NCBI RefSeq assembly: GCF_003201105.1
Contig: NZ_QICJ01000012.1
Coordinates: 124,001-188,000, forward strand
Source of the DNA: Dyella sp. AtDHG13
GTDB taxonomy: Bacteria > Pseudomonadota > Gammaproteobacteria > Xanthomonadales > Rhodanobacteraceae
Direction: 5' to 3'
DNA: 64,000 nucleotides
The number at the start of each line of letters is the position of its first letter. Within the stretch, counting starts at the first letter, position 1. Shown here one piece after another: positions 396-36,644 of the stretch. A program made the translations under genes and the position numbers. The notes below the pieces were generated by a model. That model had not been told where the DNA came from, made no database searches, and saw nothing but the letters and a program-made list of their open reading frames with translations.

Positions 396-1160
396 TCAGT
401 TCTTCAGGGCGGTCGCGGCTTCTTCGACCTGCTCGCGTTCGCTGAGGCGCTGCGAAACGCGGTCGATGTTGGAGAGCGACAGCAGGTGCGCGTAGATCCA
501 GCCCAGCACGCCTTCGCGCAGGAATTCGTGCGTGGTCTTCTCGTCGAGCTGGCGCAGCTTTTCCTCGTTGACCACGAACAGGCCGTTGAGGTTGATGCTC
601 TTGCCGTCCTTCTCGAGGCGGATGTTGCGCGGCTCGAGCAGGTTGTGCTTGCGCAGCTGTTCCATGAACCACTGCGTGCGCGCCACGTGCTGCTGGTATT
701 CGCCGAGGAAGCGCACGGCGTTGCTCAGCACTTCGGTCTCGCTGCCGTCGTCCTTGAACAGGGCTTCGCCCTCGGTACGGTCGAAGCCTTCATAGGCTTC
801 GTCGAGGAACACGGTGAAGTCGTCGCCTTCCGCACCGGCCGGCTTTTCGGCCAGCACGAACGGGTAGCGGCGCACGAAGGCGGGGATGTACGTGTTCGCC
901 ACCCAGCGGCCTTCGGCATCGATGAACAGGTTTTCGTTCTCGCGCAGGCCGAGCAGGGCCAGCGGGCCGGCGCTCTCGACCGTCAGGCCGCCGAACAGGA
1001 TCGGCAGGTCGCGCGCGGCTGCGGGAAACTCGACGCCGGTCAGCGGCACCGAATGCACTGCGCTCGCGAACTTCAGGTTCGGGATCGGCTTGATGCGCAG
1101 ATCCTTGTGTTCGGTGCGGTTGAGCGGAACAGGACGCTCGTAGAAAAGGACTTCAGCCAC
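396..1160 (-). CDS. SapC family protein
   Basis: A 254-residue protein with the SapC family pattern: an N-terminal strand ending in the RPVPLNR motif, the block FASAVHSVPLTGVEF at about 31-45, and the central YIPAFVRRYPFVL block at about 91-103. No signal peptide or membrane segment is evident. The family occurs widely in Caulobacter and Xanthomonadales, often near TonB-dependent receptors, and its molecular role is uncertain; the name comes from S-layer-linked loci. The start is GTG, chosen because an AGAGGT Shine-Dalgarno sequence lies just upstream. It is monocistronic and divergent from the HNH gene. Confidence 0.85.
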   Translation of the reverse strand: MAEVLFYERPVPLNRTEHKDLRIKPIPNLKFASAVHSVPLTGVEFPAAARDLPILFGGLTVESAGPLALLGLRENENLFIDAEGRWVANTYIPAFVRRYPFVLAEKPAGAEGDDFTVFLDEAYEGFDRTEGEALFKDDGSETEVLSNAVRFLGEYQQHVARTQWFMEQLRKHNLLEPRNIRLEKDGKSINLNGLFVVNEEKLRQLDEKTTHEFLREGVLGWIYAHLLSLSNIDRVSQRLSEREQVEEAATALKN

Positions 1161-27425: not shown

Positions 27426-28159
27426 GCCGCCTGCGCGCCGCGCTGCCGCTGATCCTGCTGGTCGCCGCCGGCATCGCGCTGTTCAGCTCCGGCCTGATGG
27501 ATCGCCTGCACCCGGAGCAACTGGTGCAGCACCAGGCGCAGATGCGCGCCGACATCGCCGCCGCGCCCTGGCTTACCCGCATCACCTTCATCGGCCTGCT
27601 CACGCTGGCCATGTCGACCGGCGTGCCTGGCACGGTGATCATCATCATCGCCGGCGGCTTCGCCTTCGGCGTGGTGGAAGGCAGCATCTATTCCTCCATC
27701 GGGCTGACGCTGGGCACGCTGATCCTGTTCCTGGCCAGCCGCTATGCGTTCGGCGCGGGCAGCAAGCACCCGCCCGCCATCGTGGACAAGCTGCACCACG
27801 GCTTCGAACGGCATCCGGTGGCCTACACCATGTTCCTGCGCTTCGTGCCGGTGGCGCCGTTCGGCCTGGTCACGGTGGCGCTGGCGTGGCTGCGTTGCCC
27901 GCTGTGGCTGTTCCTGGGCGCCAGCTGGCTGGGCGGAACGGTCTCCCTGATCTTCGAGACCTCCATCGGCGCCGGCCTGGGCGAAGCGCTGGCGCAAAGC
28001 CACGGCCATTTCGGTCCCGGCCTGCTGATGCAGCGGAGCGTGTGGCTACCGATCTCCGCCATCGCCGTGCTGGCCCTGCTGCCGCTGCTGGTGGAGCGTT
28101 TCACGCGTCGCCGTCACCGCAACACCCCCGGACATGCGCCTGTCCACCCGCAGGACTGA
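27422..28159 (+). CDS. TVP38/TMEM64 family membrane protein
   Basis: A 245-residue integral membrane protein of the SNARE-associated/DedA-like TVP38 family. Membrane segments are at about 7-25, 55-75, 78-105, 145-165 and 205-225. The family's reentrant motifs appear as GVPGTVIIIIAGGFAFG and FLRFVPVAPFGLV. DedA and TVP38 relatives are thought to act as lipid scramblases or transporters; the substrate here is not known. The start is TTG at 27422, overlapping the stop of the deaminase gene. The C terminus is basic and cytoplasmic. Confidence 0.88.
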   Translation: MSRLRAALPLILLVAAGIALFSSGLMDRLHPEQLVQHQAQMRADIAAAPWLTRITFIGLLTLAMSTGVPGTVIIIIAGGFAFGVVEGSIYSSIGLTLGTLILFLASRYAFGAGSKHPPAIVDKLHHGFERHPVAYTMFLRFVPVAPFGLVTVALAWLRCPLWLFLGASWLGGTVSLIFETSIGAGLGEALAQSHGHFGPGLLMQRSVWLPISAIAVLALLPLLVERFTRRRHRNTPGHAPVHPQD

Positions 28160-28298
28160 GCACCGCCCAAGGGATGCTCGCAACCATTTCACGCAGGCGT
28201 CACCGGCCCGACGGGCTACGCCGGTCGGCCTGCTGTCGGCCCTGGTGAATCGCGCTAGGCTGGGCCTGCCTGACATCAGACGGGTGCAAGGGGATTTC

Positions 28299-30197
28299 AT
28301 GCGTACAGGGGCCAACTCCCGGACGGTGCAATGGTGGCGTCGCACGTCGCTGATGCAGCGGCTCGCGCTGGTCGCCCTGGTGCCCACCCTGGTGACGGCC
28401 ACGCTGCTGGTCGCCATGCTCGCGCCGCAGCAGTTGATGACCTTGCGCGGCATGGCGCAGAACACCGCCGACGCCATCGCCACCCAGGCCGCCTCGGTGA
28501 CCGCCGCGCCACTGCGCGACATGCAGCGGCGCGAGCTGGTGCGCATCGCCGAATCCATCGGCGACCTGCCCCACGTCGCCCGCGTGCAGATCCGCGCCGC
28601 CGACGGCGAGATCCTGGCCGACAGCCTGGGCCGCAGCGGCGCCGACAACGGCGAAAGCCTGACGGTGGTGCGCGACGTGGTGGATACCGACCGCCCTGGC
28701 CAGCCAGTGCTGGGCACGGTAGTGGTCGACGTGAGCCTGCGCGATGCCATCGCCATGCAGCAGGCCAGCCTTCGCCATGCGCTGCTCGCGCTGGTCATCA
28801 GCCTGGTGGTGGCGGCGATCATCGCGTGGCAGGCCGCGCGCTGGATCAGCGCGCCGCTGCGCCGCCTCGTGGACGCCGTGCACCAGCTCGGCCGCGGCGA
28901 TCGCCATGTGGAGGTGGAAGTCACCGACCAGACCGAGATCGGCGAACTGCAACGGGGCTTCAACAGCGCCGCCATGGCCTTGTTCGACGTGCAGCGCGGC
29001 ATGGAGCGCGAGATCGAGCACGCCACCGTCGAACTGGCGCGCAAGAACGCCGCGCTCGAAGCCGCCAGCGTGGCCAAGGCGCGCTTCCTCGCCGCCGCAT
29101 CCCACGACCTGCGCCAGCCGCTGTATGCGCTGACGCTGTTCTCCTCGGCCCTGGCGGAGGACGAGCGCGATCCCATCCGCCTGGATCGCATCGCGCACAT
29201 CCAGGAGTGCGTGGAAGCGCTCGATCACCTGTTCAGCGAGCTGCTCGACCTGTCGCGCCTGGAAACCGGCGCCATGCAGATCGACATCGCCGAGTTCCCG
29301 CTCGACCACGTGTTCCAGGAAGTGAGCCGCAACTTCCGCATGATCGCCGAGCAGCACGGCCTGCGCCTGATCATGCGCGCCACGGATCTGTGGGTACGCA
29401 GCGACCGCACGATGCTCTCGCGCATCCTCAACAACCTGGTGAGCAACGCGCTGCGCTACACCAGCCGCGGCGGCGTGCTGGTGGTGGCGCGGCGCCGCGA
29501 CGACGGCACCGTGCGCGTGGACGTATGGGATACCGGCAGCGGCATCGCGCCGGAACACCAGGTGCGCGTCTTCGACGAGTTCTATCGGGTGGAATGCCAC
29601 GGCAACGAACACGACACCAGCCGCCGACGTGGCCTGGGCCTGGGGCTGGCGACCGTGCAGCGCCTGGCCGAACTGCTGGACACGCGCGTGCAGCTCAAAT
29701 CCAAGCCGGGCCACGGCAGCGTCTTCAGCTTCCACCTGCCTGAAGTGCCCGCGCAGCAGATCCCGCCCGCGGGCGCGCATGAGCCGCTGGCCGACGTATC
29801 GGGCATGCGCGTGCTGGTGATCGACGACGAACCGGCCATCCTGTCCGGCATCCGCTATCTGCTGGCCAGCTGGGGCTGCAAGGTGGCGGTGGCCGAAGAT
29901 CGCGTGCAGGCCTTGCAGGCCGCGGAGGAATGGAACGAGCCGCCGGACATCGTCATTTCCGACCTGCGCCTGCGCGACGGCGAAAGCGGCCTGGATGTGC
30001 TCGCCGCGCTGGATGCGCATTACCAGATCGACGGCAACCCGCCCTTCCCTCGCCTGCTCATCACCGGCGAAACACGCAGCGACCGGTTGCGCGAAATCAT
30101 GGCCGCGCGCATTCCCGTGCTCTACAAGCCCGTATCGCCGGAGCAACTGCGCGAGGCGCTGATGGTGGCCTGGAGCGCGTCGCGCGCCGCGGCCTGA
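28299..30197 (+). CDS. Hybrid sensor histidine kinase with receiver domain
   Basis: A 632-residue membrane kinase. Membrane segments lie at about 20-40 and 160-178, enclosing a periplasmic sensor region, then HAMP (about 178-235), HisKA with His269 in SHDLRQPL, HATPase (about 330-490) and a C-terminal receiver domain with phospho-acceptor Asp555 (ISDLRL). The SHDLRQPL H-box is the form found in NahK/PA1976-like kinases that often cross-talk with orphan LuxR-type regulators. Start ATG 28299 follows AAGGGGAT. A LuxR-type regulator and a second kinase lie nearby. Its signal is unknown. Confidence 0.9.
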   Translation: MRTGANSRTVQWWRRTSLMQRLALVALVPTLVTATLLVAMLAPQQLMTLRGMAQNTADAIATQAASVTAAPLRDMQRRELVRIAESIGDLPHVARVQIRAADGEILADSLGRSGADNGESLTVVRDVVDTDRPGQPVLGTVVVDVSLRDAIAMQQASLRHALLALVISLVVAAIIAWQAARWISAPLRRLVDAVHQLGRGDRHVEVEVTDQTEIGELQRGFNSAAMALFDVQRGMEREIEHATVELARKNAALEAASVAKARFLAAASHDLRQPLYALTLFSSALAEDERDPIRLDRIAHIQECVEALDHLFSELLDLSRLETGAMQIDIAEFPLDHVFQEVSRNFRMIAEQHGLRLIMRATDLWVRSDRTMLSRILNNLVSNALRYTSRGGVLVVARRRDDGTVRVDVWDTGSGIAPEHQVRVFDEFYRVECHGNEHDTSRRRGLGLGLATVQRLAELLDTRVQLKSKPGHGSVFSFHLPEVPAQQIPPAGAHEPLADVSGMRVLVIDDEPAILSGIRYLLASWGCKVAVAEDRVQALQAAEEWNEPPDIVISDLRLRDGESGLDVLAALDAHYQIDGNPPFPRLLITGETRSDRLREIMAARIPVLYKPVSPEQLREALMVAWSASRAAA

Positions 30198-31934
30198 TCA
30201 GGGCCTGGGCGCCACGCGACGGGCAAGCACGCGGTCGGCGGGCAGGAAGCGGTTGAAGAGATCGTCCACGAAGTCGCCGCTGGGTGCGTCGTTGCGCGCG
30301 CCGCCGGTGACGTACAGGCCTTGCCAGTGCAGGCGGCGCTCGCCGCCGACGTCGCTGGCCTGCAACCGCTCGACGAAAGCGCGCAGGCCACGCTGCACGC
30401 CGTACAGCGACTGCAGGAAGGCGAACGCCTCGCGGCGACGATGCGGATCATGCTCGGTCGCCAGCACGGCCAGCGCCGCCGACACCAGCTTTCCGGCCAC
30501 CACGTCCGCCTGGACGTCCAGGCGCCCATCCGGCACGCCCTCGCGACTCTGGAAACCCTTGCGCCAGCCCAGCACGCGACGGAATACCGAGCTGGGCAAG
30601 GCCGCGCGGAAGGCGGCATGGCCCGGCAATCCTTCCAGCCCGGTCACTACGACGTAGACGGGCAGCTGCAACTGGAGCCGGCGCGTGGCCTCGTCGGCAA
30701 GCCGGCGCAGTCGATCGGCATACGAAGCCACCGCGCCTTCCGGTTCGCGCAGGCTCTGTGCCGCCACGCAGATGACCATGCCGTCCAGCGGCAGCTTGCG
30801 GCGCTCCCGGGCGAGCAGCGACAAGGCCTTCGACCACGGCGCATCGCCATCGCCGATGGCGGCGTGCGGATGCGACAGGCGCGGCCCCGGTTCAACGGCC
30901 ACCAGTGCGCGGAACACCCACCAATGCCAGGGCTGCGCATCGTTGGCGCGCGAGTGTTCCCGCGCGTGCGGCGCGGCGGCAGCCGCCTGCAACAGCGAAC
31001 GCACGTCGGCTGGGCTGTCGCCGACGAACAGCAGCCAGGGATGTCGCGACAACTGCCGCCATTCGCCCCGCCGCCGGAACGGATGAAGGATCGCGCCACG
31101 CAGGCGGCGCGCGGCATCCCTCACCGCCGCCGACAGGCTGCCGATGCCATAGCCGGAATCCGTGCTGTCGGCCACGCGCGTATGCGCGCGCATCATCACC
31201 AGCGACTGCCAGGCCAGCGCGCCGACCCAGCCAATCACGCCCAGCACGGCCAGCACGATGCCACCCAGGAACCACGCCTGCTCCGAAATGGCCTGGCTGA
31301 AGACCGGCGCCACAAAAGCCACGAACACCAGCAGCACCACGAGCGCGGCGACCAGCTGCGCCAGCCGGCGTCCTATCCATGTTCCCGGCAGGCGCAGCAC
31401 CGGCGAGCCGGGCGTCATGTATGGCTGCGGCGTCACCGATTCGCGCTGCAGCGACTGCAGCACGGCAGCCGCGCCGGTGCTGGCCGGGCAGTAAAGCGCC
31501 TTGATGCGGCCCAGCTCGCCGCTGTCGCCCTGCTCGTAGTAGTACTGGCCGCGGAAGCCGAGCAGCAGCGCCATGCCGAAGACTTCGCGCACTTCTTCCT
31601 CGTCGCTGCCCAGGCGGCCAAGCTGGTCGAAGAATTCCGTAGCGGCGCCGCCGGTGCGGTAGAGCACGTGCTGCAGCGTGCCGACCTGGTTGCCCCAGCC
31701 GCCTCGCCGCATCGCCAGCTCGTCCAGCCAGGCGATGGCCGCGAAGGCCGCCAGCTCCACCTCCGCCAGCGGCTTGCCGCGCGCGAACGCGGCGCCGCGC
31801 GCCTGCTCCACCAGCGCAAGCGCGCGAGCGTGTACGGACGGCCATTCGTCGTCAGGGAGATTCTGGCTTGCCGCCTGCTCGTCGATCAGCAAGCCATAGG
31901 CAAACAAAGGTGCGAAACATTCCAGCAGCCGCAT
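30198..31934 (-). CDS. TssL (DotU/IcmH)-TssM (IcmF)-like fusion protein, orphan
   Basis: A 578-residue protein joining two parts of the type VI secretion membrane complex in one chain. Residues 1-165 are DotU/TssL-like (AAIAWLDELAM near 65-74, GGAATEFFDQLGRL near 95-108, LLLGFRGQYYYEQGDSGEL near 123-141). Two membrane segments follow (about 190-212 and 222-247). Residues 290-578 match the cytoplasmic NTPase-like part of TssM: PVYVVVTGLEGLPG near 425-438 and the end motif LYVTGGA near 540. The Walker A position (about 304-316) and the usual T-K-x-D position (TGLE) are degenerate. The large periplasmic TssM region is missing. No other T6SS genes are in the window. Confidence 0.8.
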   Translation of the reverse strand: MRLLECFAPLFAYGLLIDEQAASQNLPDDEWPSVHARALALVEQARGAAFARGKPLAEVELAAFAAIAWLDELAMRRGGWGNQVGTLQHVLYRTGGAATEFFDQLGRLGSDEEEVREVFGMALLLGFRGQYYYEQGDSGELGRIKALYCPASTGAAAVLQSLQRESVTPQPYMTPGSPVLRLPGTWIGRRLAQLVAALVVLLVFVAFVAPVFSQAISEQAWFLGGIVLAVLGVIGWVGALAWQSLVMMRAHTRVADSTDSGYGIGSLSAAVRDAARRLRGAILHPFRRRGEWRQLSRHPWLLFVGDSPADVRSLLQAAAAAPHAREHSRANDAQPWHWWVFRALVAVEPGPRLSHPHAAIGDGDAPWSKALSLLARERRKLPLDGMVICVAAQSLREPEGAVASYADRLRRLADEATRRLQLQLPVYVVVTGLEGLPGHAAFRAALPSSVFRRVLGWRKGFQSREGVPDGRLDVQADVVAGKLVSAALAVLATEHDPHRRREAFAFLQSLYGVQRGLRAFVERLQASDVGGERRLHWQGLYVTGGARNDAPSGDFVDDLFNRFLPADRVLARRVAPRP

Positions 31935-32508
31935 GGCATCGATAGCCGTCAGAGCCTATTGCGTGTTGCTCCATGGCCCCGGCCGGAACACCCTGTGCCT
32001 GCCGGGGGACGCGCGCCGAAGTCTACGACGATACATGTCGCCGTGCAGGCCAACGGGCGCACGGGGCGAAGCCCCGCATGGAAGAGAAGAAGCCGCCCCG
32101 TGCGGGGAAGAAGGAGCCATCCGTGGCAAGCCACCGATCGGCGCAGGCGTCATGCCGCGCATGCCGGAGGTTCCAAAGCGTTGGGAAGGGGCTGGGCGCA
32201 ACACGCCATCGGCGAGCCGATCACACCGGGCGTGTCGCTCATGTCGTGCCGGAACCTCCGGTGCCGCCAACGGGACGCGCCAGCGTGCGCATCCCGCGCT
32301 GTCCCTGCATGCACCGGAGCGCAGCGCCCATGAGCGACTCCCCCATCGCGGTGGATGAATTTTCACGATCAAACGACAGACCGGCCATATCTCGTTGAGG
32401 CTATGTCGTTCGTACGCTCCTTGAGGTTGCCGTGCGCACAGGCTGGGGCTATGTTGCGCAAGCCGGATGTGCGGCGATGGGAGAGCCGCAGGCGCCATGG
32501 GGAACGAC
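31935..32508. other. Intergenic region with nested inverted repeats upstream of the response regulator
   Basis: About 570 bp without a credible gene between the divergent TssL-TssM-like gene and the response regulator gene. The central part is rich in inverted repeats: an 8-bp pair at 32061-32068 and 32094-32101 with alternative short hairpins inside it, and a nested three-stem structure at 32164-32261. Short open frames through it have no motif or ribosome binding site. Confidence 0.55.
32164..32261. other. Candidate structured RNA element
   Basis: Three nested perfect stems: 11 bp (32164-32174 with 32251-32261), 7 bp (32201-32207 with 32229-32235) and 5 bp (32208-32212 with 32217-32221, loop CGAG). 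The structure lies about 250 nt before the response regulator start. It could be a leader structure, a small RNA or a dispersed repeat. No T-run follows either end, so it is not an ordinary terminator. Confidence 0.4.
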
Positions 32509-33192
32509 ATGCGCATATTGATCGCAGACGACCATCGACTCATCGTCGAAGGGGTCAAGCTCAAGCTGGCCGAGCTTGGGTCGGACACGAGTTTTGTCAC
32601 GGCCATGGACATGGCGGAACTTCGCGAAGCGATCCATTCGCCCGAGGCCTCGTCGCTGTCGCTCGCGCTCATCGACCTGGCCATGCCCGGCGTGCAGGGC
32701 AGCGAGCATCTGGCCGAGGTGATCGAGCATCTCCCGCAGGTTCCCGTGATGGTGCTGTCCGGCTCCGAGGACGGCGCACTGATGAAGAGCCTGCTGGCCA
32801 TGGGCGTGCAGGGTTTCATTCCCAAGGCCTATTCGCCCGACGTGATGCTGTCCGCCGTGCGCCTGGTGTTGTCCGGCGGCATCTACGTGCCGCCCCTGAT
32901 GCTGCAGGAACGCCCGGACGGCGCGGCCTCCGCACCGGCACCGAGCGTGGCGGCGCAGGCGCCGGCCAACGCGGCCGATTCGCTGGAAGAGCGGCTGCGC
33001 AAGCTGCTCACCGAACGCCAGATCGACGTGCTGCGGCTGCTTTCGCAGGGCAAGCCGAACAAGCTCATCGCCCGTGACCTGGGCATCAGCGAAGGCACGG
33101 TGAAGATTCACCTTGCTGCCATCTTCCGCGCGCTCAATGTACGCAACCGGGTGGAAGCCGTGGTTGCATCGCGCCGCATCAGCGGCCTTTGA
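32509..33192 (+). CDS. LuxR/NarL-type response regulator
   Basis: A 227-residue two-component regulator. The receiver domain (1-120) has the acidic pair DD at 7-8, phospho-acceptor Asp56 (ALIDLAMPG) and Lys near 105 (FIPKAYSPD). An Ala-rich linker (about 132-155) joins it to a LuxR-type helix-turn-helix (about 160-222, LTERQIDVLRLLSQGKPNKLIARDLGIS). The start at 32509 is preferred (GGGGAACGAC upstream); an ATG at 32497 would add four residues. A PhnD-like gene follows 64 bp downstream. Partner kinases are probably among the two nearby SHxxRQPL-type kinases. Confidence 0.9.
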   Translation: MRILIADDHRLIVEGVKLKLAELGSDTSFVTAMDMAELREAIHSPEASSLSLALIDLAMPGVQGSEHLAEVIEHLPQVPVMVLSGSEDGALMKSLLAMGVQGFIPKAYSPDVMLSAVRLVLSGGIYVPPLMLQERPDGAASAPAPSVAAQAPANAADSLEERLRKLLTERQIDVLRLLSQGKPNKLIARDLGISEGTVKIHLAAIFRALNVRNRVEAVVASRRISGL

Positions 33193-33256: not shown

Positions 33257-34318
33257 GTGCCGAAGGACAGGATCGCAAGCCAACGCAGCAAGACCCGCAC
33301 GGCACGCTTCGCGGGGATGAGGGTGGCGTGGCTGCTTGTGCTGCTCCTGCTCGGCGCACCGGCGGTGTGCGCGGACCAGACGCAGGCCACGGGGCATATC
33401 AATGCCCTGACCTTCGGCATCCTGCCGATCGGCGGTCCTTCCGAGTCGCTCGCCGCCTGGCGCCCGATGCTCGACGACCTGAGCCACACGCTGCACCTGC
33501 CCATCCGCAGCCTGTCGGTCAGCACGTATGAAGGGTTGGGCGAGGCCATGGCCGAGGAGCGCGTGGACTTTGCCTTCGTATCCGGCCGGCTGGCGCTGGA
33601 CGCAGTGATCCACGACCGCATGCAGGTGATCGCCCAGCTGACCCGCAGCAACGGTTCGCGCGGCTATTACTCGGTATTGCTCGTACCCCGCGATTCGCCG
33701 CTGCAAAGCCTGGACGACCTGTACAAGCAGCCGGGCAAGCTGCGCTATGCGCGCGGCGAAGTGCTCTCGGTTTCCGGCTACCTCGTACCCGAGACGCAGG
33801 TGTTCGCCAATCGCCGGCTGGACTCGGATACGTTCTTCGCCAACGTATCTGTCGACAATCACCAGAACAACGCGCTCGCCGTCGCCAACAACGAGGCCGA
33901 CGTCGCCACCAACAACACGGCCGACATGGAGCGCTTCGCGGAGCGCTTTCCCGATCAGTACGCGCGCGTGCGCGTGCTATGGACGTCCAGCCTGATTCCG
34001 CATGCGGTGGTGGTGATACGCACCGACCTTCCCGCCGACCTGCGCCAGCGCGTCGCCGCCGCGTTGACCTCTTATGCCAAGGGCAGGAATGCCCAGGCCG
34101 AGCTGGCGAAACTGCATCTGATCCACGACATCAGCGGCTTCATGCCCGCCGGCAACGAGACGCTGGTGCCCTTCGCCGATATCGAGTTCAACCTCGACCG
34201 CCGCCGCGCCTACAGCGCGCAATGGGTGAGCGACGCCGCCATGCAGGCGCGGCTGAAAAAGATCGATGCCGAACACGAGGCGCTGGTGCGCCAGTTGATG
34301 GCGCCCAGCTCCCCCTGA
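33257..34318 (+). CDS. PhnD-like phosphate/phosphonate-type substrate-binding protein
   Basis: A 353-residue exported protein of the PhnD family (phosphate/phosphite/phosphonate ABC-type binding proteins). A hydrophobic export segment spans about 23-37, then two lobes: LTFGILPIGGPSESLAAWRPML (about 50-71), VDFAFVSGRLALD (about 108-120) and NNEADVATNNTADMERF near 210-226. The start is GTG at 33257; ATG at 33317 is a shorter option that keeps the signal sequence. No ABC permease or ATPase gene adjoins it, and it sits among two-component genes, so it may serve as a periplasmic sensor partner rather than a transporter subunit. Confidence 0.82.
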   Translation: MPKDRIASQRSKTRTARFAGMRVAWLLVLLLLGAPAVCADQTQATGHINALTFGILPIGGPSESLAAWRPMLDDLSHTLHLPIRSLSVSTYEGLGEAMAEERVDFAFVSGRLALDAVIHDRMQVIAQLTRSNGSRGYYSVLLVPRDSPLQSLDDLYKQPGKLRYARGEVLSVSGYLVPETQVFANRRLDSDTFFANVSVDNHQNNALAVANNEADVATNNTADMERFAERFPDQYARVRVLWTSSLIPHAVVVIRTDLPADLRQRVAAALTSYAKGRNAQAELAKLHLIHDISGFMPAGNETLVPFADIEFNLDRRRAYSAQWVSDAAMQARLKKIDAEHEALVRQLMAPSSP

Positions 34319-35207: not shown

Positions 35208-36644
35208 ATGGAACCGCGCGCGCATCTGCTGCCACGCCTGTTCATCGATGTCGTCCTGCCCAGCACCATGGCCGCCCTGGCCCTGATCCTGGCGCTGTGC
35301 ATACAGCAGACCCACAACCTTGCCGAGCGCGTGAATGCCGCCGCCACCCTGCGGCTGTCGCGGCTGGCCGGTGAGCTGGACGCCAGCGGCGGCAGCGCGC
35401 CCACCCAGGCCACGCTGGACAGAACCCTGCAGGAAGCCCGGGAAGATCGCGTGGTGCGCGTGGAATGGCATGGCGCGGACGGAAGCCTGTGGAGCAGCGG
35501 CACCCTTTCTCCGACCAGCAGCACCACCTATCGCAGTGAGGTGCGTCCGCAGGGCAGCGCCTCGTCCTGGGTGAGCATGCAGGTCGACACGCGCCCTCTG
35601 CGGCAGGCGCAAGCCATGGTCTGGCTGCTGGGTGCGCTATGCGCGTCCGGCATTCTCGTGTTGGCGTGGCTGGCGCGCGTATCCATTCGCCATCGCGTGC
35701 TCGAACCGCTATCGCAGGTGCGCTACGCGGTGCATGAGCTGGTGAACGCGCGCCATCCGCAACTGGACAACACGCCGGCGAGCACCGAGTTCATCGAGCT
35801 GCGCAAGAGCCTGCAACGCCTGTCCGAATTGCAGGAAGAACAACGCCGCGACTGGAGCGCGATGCAGCACGACAACGCCGTCGAGGCGCTGGACCGGCTG
35901 CGCCAGAGCCAGGCGGCCACGCGCAGCAAATCGCAGTTCATCGCGCTGGTCAGCCACCACTTCCGCCAGCCGCTGCAGGCGCTGGAACTGTTTGCGGCCG
36001 GCCTGGACCAGAACGCCAGCCAGGAGCAGCAGTCGCTGTTCCAGCAGATGCGCAACAGCATTGCGTCGATGACGCGCCTGCTGGATGCGCTGCTGGAAAT
36101 CTCCCGCCTCGACGCCGGCGTGATCGCGGTGAAACCGGTCGGCTTCACCGCCGCCGAGTTGTTCATGCGCGACCGCACCTCGCTCAATCACGAGGCAGCG
36201 CGCCATCAGGTGACGCTGACCTGGCGCGGCAGCCACCATCAATTGCACAGCGATGCGGATGTCGCGGCCAGCCTGCTCTATCAGTTGGCGAGCAATGCCA
36301 TCGCCAACGCGCCCGCCGGGCGCGTGCTGATCGCTGCGCGCCGGTGCGGCCAGTCCATCCGCATCGAAGTACGCGACAACGGCACGGGCATCGCCGTGAT
36401 CCACCAACAGCGCATCTTCGAGGAATTCGTGCAATTGCAGGCCGGTGAAAGCGAACGCCGCGGCGGCTACGGGCTCGGTCTCGCCATCGCCGAACGCCTC
36501 GCCCGCCTGCTGGGCACGCGCATCGGGCTGCGCTCCGAGCCGGGGCGAGGCAGCACCTTCTGGTTCGACCTGCCGCGCATGCCGGTGATGGAGCGCCACT
36601 CCAACCCGCAGAAGCCCGCCGACTCCTGGCGACAGGCAAGCTGA
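35208..36644 (+). CDS. Sensor histidine kinase
   Basis: A 478-residue membrane kinase. Membrane segments at about 12-32 and 137-155 bracket a periplasmic region of about 100 residues. A HAMP-like linker and coiled coil (about 160-240) lead to HisKA with His250 in SHHFRQPL and the HATPase domain (about 335-455, with N, G1 and G2 boxes YQLASNAIANA, DNGTGI and GGYGLGLAIAERL). The H-box resembles that of the hybrid kinase about 7 kb upstream, so the two kinases may act on the same LuxR-type regulator between them. No receiver domain is attached. Confidence 0.9.
   Translation: MEPRAHLLPRLFIDVVLPSTMAALALILALCIQQTHNLAERVNAAATLRLSRLAGELDASGGSAPTQATLDRTLQEAREDRVVRVEWHGADGSLWSSGTLSPTSSTTYRSEVRPQGSASSWVSMQVDTRPLRQAQAMVWLLGALCASGILVLAWLARVSIRHRVLEPLSQVRYAVHELVNARHPQLDNTPASTEFIELRKSLQRLSELQEEQRRDWSAMQHDNAVEALDRLRQSQAATRSKSQFIALVSHHFRQPLQALELFAAGLDQNASQEQQSLFQQMRNSIASMTRLLDALLEISRLDAGVIAVKPVGFTAAELFMRDRTSLNHEAARHQVTLTWRGSHHQLHSDADVAASLLYQLASNAIANAPAGRVLIAARRCGQSIRIEVRDNGTGIAVIHQQRIFEEFVQLQAGESERRGGYGLGLAIAERLARLLGTRIGLRSEPGRGSTFWFDLPRMPVMERHSNPQKPADSWRQAS

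Follow-up and report, generated by a model that had tools for sequence, protein, structure and literature searches.

What can be the origin, and what the use, of a gene that joins parts of TssL and TssM, two proteins of the type VI secretion system (T6SS), in a single chain and lies outside any T6SS locus? The question is raised by a 578-residue open reading frame (ORF) of Dyella sp. AtDHG13, from a genus of soil bacteria, located at 30198..31934 on the minus strand (ATG at 31934, TGA ending at 30198) of a 64,000-nucleotide stretch of contig NZ_QICJ01000012.1 (positions 124,001 to 188,000), which we call the window. We consider it reasonably probable that an ancestral T6SS cluster collapsed in Dyella to this in-frame fusion, which was retained and is now a scaffold for a partner outside the T6SS.

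Anatomy of the fusion protein

Two Pfam families matched the chain above their cut-offs: DotU over residues 3-207 (E 4.9e-18, 65.9 bits, cut-off 27) and IcmF-related_N over residues 365-563 (E 4.9e-31, 108.4 bits, cut-off 25). A third match, to Peripla_BP_3 (E 0.012), was under its own cut-off and was disregarded. With NCBIfam, the fusion scored under the curated cut-offs of both the TssM model (TIGR03348; 92.9 of 388 bits) and the DotU model (TIGR03349; 54.8 of 90 bits), as likewise did the full-length TssM (155.5 of 388 bits) and DotU (84.5 of 90 bits) proteins of the cousins, as we call the TssL and TssM of T6SS clusters in genera g3, g18 and g76. The N-terminal part of an orthologue profile matched the solved cytoplasmic domains of TssL/DotU 3u66 (E 4.8e-9) and 6y4r (E 1.6e-7).

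Alignment to the cousins divided the chain into three parts. The TssL/DotU cytoplasmic domain (about residues 1-187; 31374..31934, minus strand) ends at about residue 187, immediately ahead of the membrane helix of TssL. It is followed by two hydrophobic segments corresponding to the first two transmembrane segments of TssM, TM1 and TM2 (about residues 188-248; 31191..31373, minus strand), which hydropathy placed at about 185-218 and 215-248, and by the cytoplasmic nucleoside triphosphatase (NTPase)-like domain of TssM (about residues 249-571; 30222..31190, minus strand). The TssM part picks up from about residue 9 of TssM, and the ORF stops immediately ahead of TM3. TssL's own C-terminal membrane anchor is missing, the membrane segment of the fusion aligning to TssM TM1, and so are TM3 and the long periplasmic domain of TssM. 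Relative to the cousins, the periplasmic DUF4384 part carried by cousin TssL and some 770 TssM residues have been removed. Near residue 186, not far from the ends of both partners, stands a tryptophan that 18 or more of the 20 fusions have kept; the junction and the C-terminal end agreed across the seven fusions aligned, and an alignment of all 20 had no large gap at either place. A weak additional hydrophobic window (474-492) in the protein of the window was absent from two other fusions tested.

Alignments and profile matches together indicate that the chain is a true TssL-TssM fusion. It would be held in the inner membrane by a two-helix hairpin, with both T6SS domains on the cytoplasmic side and no part reaching the periplasm or the outer membrane; alone, it cannot be a T6SS membrane complex. 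An antisense ORF of 670 residues (30321-32333, plus strand) is best read as an artefact of DNA with a high guanine and cytosine (GC) content, since the codon-position pattern favours the frame of the fusion.

The Walker A position (30999..31022, minus strand) reads GDSPADVR and lacks GK[ST]. The positions which we take to be those of the DxxG-like (30876..30902, minus strand) and TKxD-like (30633..30653, minus strand) motifs read VAVEPGPRL and VVVTGLE, respectively. Walker A was found in none of the 20 fusions and in none of nine cousin TssMs (six read over their full length, three over part of it), and in all of 15 other TssMs, seven of which came from six Dyella genomes. Its loss is common to the fusion and the cousin T6SS lineage and is therefore older than the fusion. 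A preliminary description of this DNA, made from its letters, had recognized a single chain of 578 residues with a DotU/TssL domain, two membrane segments and a TssM cytoplasmic domain, degenerate Walker A and TKxD-like positions, and the absence of the long periplasmic TssM region. All of this agrees with our data, which add that the gene lies on the minus strand, and the C-terminal half did match IcmF, a failure to do so having been named as fatal to the proposal. The description had also taken the degenerate motifs as a sign of domestication; this is not supported, since the same degenerate motifs occur in TssM of the cousin T6SSs. For the TssM of A. tumefaciens, Walker A and ATP binding are reported in the part of the source available (PMC3953482).

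Conservation in the absence of a T6SS

A full-length orthologue was present in each of the 20 Dyella genomes, with 56-87% identity to the protein of the window. All 20 frames were uninterrupted, began with ATG and encoded 569-582 residues; the TGA at codon 570 in G012 is its normal stop. By comparison, TssC was matched in 6 of the 20 genomes, TssK in 5 and Hcp in 7. The figure for TssC may be an undercount, as some assemblies are incomplete (G016, 86% complete, had no TssC match); G004 (640 contigs) gave matches for TssC and Hcp, not for TssK. A lone Hcp match (G018:C12:28379-28765) was also seen in a Dyella genome with neither TssC nor TssK match. Sheath, tube and baseplate genes of a working T6SS were missing from the genome of the window (G000), where TssC, TssK and Hcp were all without a match; TssJ, TssB and ClpV had no separate genome search. 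PF06761 was absent too from this genome, which says little because full-length cousin TssM shows PF14331 only. A T6SS review, in the part available, shows such a system for D. japonica, classes the T6SSs of Dyella as one branch of its group 3 and never uses the word 'fused' (PMC6653060).

Several measures indicated that the gene is under purifying selection. The ratio of nonsynonymous to synonymous substitution rates (dN/dS; Nei-Gojobori) was 0.10-0.41 against G000, the synonymous rate (dS) being near 1 and saturating in distant pairs, and 0.066-0.18 in the twelve closest pairs. Averaged over 190 orthologue pairs, codon positions 1, 2 and 3 differed by 0.27, 0.20 and 0.48. The 20 fusions were identical at 161 of 586 alignment columns. 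When neutral evolution was simulated at 10-30% substitution, at most 6 of 500 frames stayed open. The fusion is thus retained under purifying selection without its parent system, and we take it to be a working gene. Its presence in 20 of 20 Dyella genomes, as against 6 of 20 for TssC, supports its being an orphan independent of the T6SS. The preliminary description had seen no other T6SS gene in the window and had proposed a domesticated, minimal derivative; both statements stand, the first now extended to the whole genome for TssC, TssK and Hcp, the second as the best reading of the distribution and the selection. Nor did homologues turn out to lie in complete T6SS loci, the other outcome that the description had named as contrary to it: none of the Dyella fusions lay within such a locus.

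We found no whole fusion outside Dyella in draws of 398 (order), 369 (class) and 398 (phylum) genomes; these draws share genomes, and no more than three candidates were scored in each genome, so that rare fusions elsewhere are possible. In the order-level draw, 35 genomes matched at E<=1e-20, of which 14 were Dyella with the whole fusion; at E<=1e-12, 9 genomes of the class draw and 21 of the phylum draw matched, with a whole fusion in the window's own genome only. Named relatives carrying the locus (8 loci) were all Dyella (8/8). Searched against its own genome, the fusion gave no second match at E<=10. Among 72,556 plasmid records, 52 matched, none covering 80% of the query, and the eight matches listed all fell in the TssM half.

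The locus in Dyella and in related genera

In all 20 Dyella genomes the gene order was glnS, deaminase, TVP38, hybrid kinase, fusion (minus strand), LuxR regulator, PhnD-like, DUF3617 and second kinase; queC came next in 19 of them, and in G012 none was found in the 5 kb past the kinase. In the window, assignments from Pfam and synteny give a hybrid histidine kinase with HAMP, HisKA, HATPase and receiver domains (28230..30197, plus strand; an upstream ATG at 28134 is also present), a LuxR-type response regulator (32467..33192, plus strand) and the second histidine kinase of this conserved neighbourhood (35208..36644, plus strand), and Pfam gives a PhnD-like periplasmic binding protein (33257..34318, plus strand). 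The fusion and the hybrid kinase are convergent, their stops lying -4 to 45 bp apart in 17 of 20 genomes and 272-905 bp in the other 3, and 259-539 bp separate the fusion from the divergent LuxR gene; the fusion would therefore be expected to have its own promoter.

The same two regulators enclosed a T6SS cluster in all six genomes of relatives read (G188, G364 and G263 of g18, G021 and G046 of g3, G202 of g76), the kinase forming the left flank of the cluster and the LuxR regulator the right flank of its inner block. This block contained tssE, hcp, tssC, tssB, tssA, tssM, tssL and tssK plus a TraB/GumN gene, named from Pfam for the g3 proteins and by similarity to g3 in the other genera. The PhnD-like gene adjoined the regulator after the block in five of the six (exception G202), and tssF, tssG and clpV then followed in five of the six, none being found in G046 in the 4 kb from PhnD to the contig end. 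In the G021 cluster, 12 of 13 T6SS core genes were recognized, TssJ not being among the proteins scanned. In G364 and G263, glnS, deaminase and TVP38 lay directly outside the T6SS locus, the same as in Dyella. The two halves of the fusion were closest to the TssL and TssM lying between these flanking genes in g3, g18 and g76.

The cousin T6SS itself looks unusual, having TssM without Walker A, TssL with DUF4384, and MltA/3D-domain and TraB/GumN genes in the cluster. An OmpA gene lies near the T6SS of G021, and no TssJ match was seen among the proteins scanned, which did not include every ORF. A Reg_prop propeller-type histidine kinase occurs inside the g3 cluster (L039:10943-13816); the stretches examined in g18 and g76 gave no match to it.

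In seven genomes of six other genera (G037, G039, G030, G033, G026, G051 and G029), the kinase and regulator matches were 86-161 bp apart with nothing between them. These regulators thus persist without a T6SS. glnS was near five of the seven pairs; it was not in L101, and L102 is a contig of 4.5 kb. In an eighth genome (G028, L100:10166-12829), the gap held an antiporter-like gene and a small ORF, both named by eye.

From its position, the fusion could be an accessory to signalling by the two-component genes on either side, for instance by serving the hybrid kinase or the LuxR regulator as a membrane scaffold; the preliminary description had suggested such a link. The regulators indeed adjoin the fusion in all 20 Dyella genomes, and in relatives they enclose the T6SS. 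This same fact means that the closeness may have been inherited from the T6SS locus, as is probably the case. Moreover, the seven genomes with nothing between the regulators argue that they do not need the fusion, and its orientation relative to both neighbours places it outside their operon. The closeness is therefore real but is no proof of joint work, and we regard this explanation as unlikely.

Change of constraint and possible function

We compared rates in the same 20 species. For the shared TssL/TssM parts, the Dyella stem had a length of 1.15 substitutions per site and the crown a mean depth of 0.62 (TssL part 0.81 and 0.49; TssM part 1.34 and 0.67), as against 0.12 and 0.195 for the hybrid kinase. 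Between g3 and g18, examined in one pair (G021-G364), the TssL/TssM parts were the slower ones (0.24 against 0.83 for the kinase). So, relative to the neighbouring kinase, the protein appears to have changed faster once outside the machine. Dyella was not one clade in the LuxR regulator tree, and its node was weak in the hybrid kinase tree (43, the support labels having been printed after rerooting, so that they may sit on neighbouring nodes); for this reason the comparison uses the branch lengths of the kinase and not its topology.

The nine cousins had 101 invariant columns in the TssL part and 177 in the TssM part (TM hairpin included), numbers inflated by their relatedness. Of these columns, 55 and 67, respectively, kept the cousin residue in 18 or more of the 20 fusions, and 23 and 70 lost it in 18 or more. 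In 25 columns (5 in the TssL part, 20 in the TssM part), all fusions shared a residue that none of the cousins had. We read this pattern as a shift to a new constraint rather than decay.

For enteroaggregative Escherichia coli (EAEC), the part of PMC4604203 available reports contacts of the TssM cytoplasmic loop with TssG and of TssK with both TssL and TssM. From these baseplate contacts, the retained part of the fusion would correspond to the docking face. On balance, we predict that the fusion is a nucleotide-independent inner-membrane scaffold for a cytoplasmic partner that does not belong to a T6SS. The surface that formerly docked the T6SS baseplate would now hold this other partner.

The same docking face could instead act as a decoy, binding TssK- or TssG-like parts of acquired T6SSs or of phage-tail baseplates and thereby blocking them. 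It would make sense of the retention of the cytoplasmic docking side alone, which still carries the D71-E72 pair and the motifs PQPY and GELG found in cousin TssL, and fast evolution would fit an arms race. Yet PADLOC gave no match for the fusion at E<=1, 6 of 20 Dyella genomes carry other T6SSs alongside it, and dN/dS over the whole gene is far under 1, which makes interference quite improbable.

We consider it very improbable that the fusion is a decaying fossil, that is, a deletion scar left open by chance in high-GC DNA and drifting without function. Such a fossil would account for the fast evolution relative to the kinase and for the loss of the 23 and 70 cousin-invariant residues just mentioned. 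It is at odds with the 20 uninterrupted frames, the 161 invariant columns, a dN/dS far under 1, the codon-position pattern and the neutral simulations.

Proposed origin

The order of events, like the topology and the function, is what we infer from these observations; the collapse of a T6SS cluster at this site is suggested by position. A T6SS cluster would once have stood between the hybrid kinase and the LuxR regulator, and in the common ancestor of Dyella it would have collapsed to a single gene. In this event, tssL would have been cut ahead of its membrane helix and joined in frame to tssM ahead of the first membrane helix of the latter, the fused gene ending ahead of the third tssM helix, beside the kinase. 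The fusion would then have evolved fast and been retained.

In a tree of the kinase, regulator and PhnD proteins (22 genomes, including 8 of the 20 Dyella), Dyella grouped with g19, in which the locus is empty; next came g3 (T6SS) with g21 (empty), and next g18 (T6SS). Here, too, the rerooting before printing may have shifted support labels to adjacent nodes. Within these five genera, the simplest account is an ancestral T6SS cluster, two whole losses and one collapse to the fusion. If g76, which belongs to another family, has the same origin, more losses are needed.

Several observations weigh against this account. g3 grouped with g18 in the tree of TssL and TssM and was nearer to Dyella in the regulator tree, a difference that may reflect movement of T6SS genes from one genus to another; repeated gain, or exchange, may also have occurred, and the TssL/TssM tree hints at exchange. 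The long stem and fast crown could partly reflect relaxed constraint, or a parent T6SS lineage older than the sampled cousins. Only 2 of the 6 genomes with a T6SS at this locus had glnS beside it. The sequence read from the other four, G021 (80 kb), G046 (31.6 kb), G188 (40 kb) and G202 (40 kb), contained no glnS, so that the site is matched there by the hybrid kinase and the LuxR regulator only. No convincing remnant of other T6SS genes was detected by blastx in the gaps beside the fusion in the 20 Dyella genomes. The best candidate (E 3e-4), a match of the G001 gap to the TssM C-terminal region of G202, is probably not one, as it lay on the strand opposite to the fusion and came from very many comparisons; the G012 gap gave a weaker match to the same TssM region. 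Finally, AlphaFold modelled the fusion (9 sequences) with a mean predicted local distance difference test score (pLDDT) of 57, too poor for judging a nucleotide pocket, a question that we therefore answered by motif alignment. With this low-confidence model, Foldseek returned nothing at E<=0.001 and TssL/DotU chains at probability 0.99-1.00 (E 0.34-0.69), which weakly supports a DotU fold only.

The fusion might also have arisen elsewhere and entered the locus by transfer, the relatives having gained their T6SS clusters independently at the same site. This would suit the regulator tree, in which the states interleave (fusion, empty, T6SS, empty, T6SS), and the discordant placement of g3. It is the least probable explanation of all, as the TssL and TssM nearest to the fusion halves are those that these flanking genes enclose in relatives, and the three draws of genomes gave no fusion outside Dyella.

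Returning to the collapse, we hold it evenly balanced whether a T6SS docking platform was excised by one such event and exapted throughout the genus as a stand-alone, nucleotide-independent scaffold without a role in secretion, that is, as a natural single-chain TssL-TssM.

Comparison with known systems

No title or abstract start mentioned such a TssL-TssM fusion in the part of the literature matches that our searches covered. With the fusion, the reduction of a secretion machine to a single protein under selection becomes open to test. If the fusion folds like its parts, it would also be a single-chain model of the cytoplasmic face of TssL-TssM, in which to examine whether this face needs a nucleotide or a baseplate in order to act.

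Among protein families, the fusion resembles TssL/DotU (PF09850, TIGR03349) over residues 3-207, its nearest relatives being TssL of the T6SSs of g3, g18 and g76, but TssM takes the place of TssL's membrane helix and periplasmic DUF4384 part. With TssM/IcmF (PF14331, TIGR03348) it shares TM1-TM2 and the cytoplasmic NTPase-like domain (about residues 188-571). Unlike TssM, it has no TM3, no periplasmic domain, which in EAEC comprises 744 residues according to the available part of PMC3213119, and no Walker A, the last being absent from cousin TssM as well.

Pseudomonas aeruginosa IcmF3 is likewise an IcmF protein, with pleiotropic deletion phenotypes, but, from what the available part of the source tells (PMC4589678), it belongs to one of the T6SSs of that species, whereas the Dyella fusion is an orphan. 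Variation in the parts of the membrane complex is also described, in the portions available, for the non-canonical complexes of Acinetobacter (PMC10564176) and Bacteroidota (PMC10781749); unlike the fusion, these are part of working T6SSs. A further comparison is with the loci of g18, g3 and g76, which agree with that of Dyella in their place between the regulators and in the lineage of TssL and TssM, but have a T6SS cluster where Dyella has one fused gene. Together, the related genera thus offer T6SS-bearing, collapsed and empty versions of one kinase-regulator locus.
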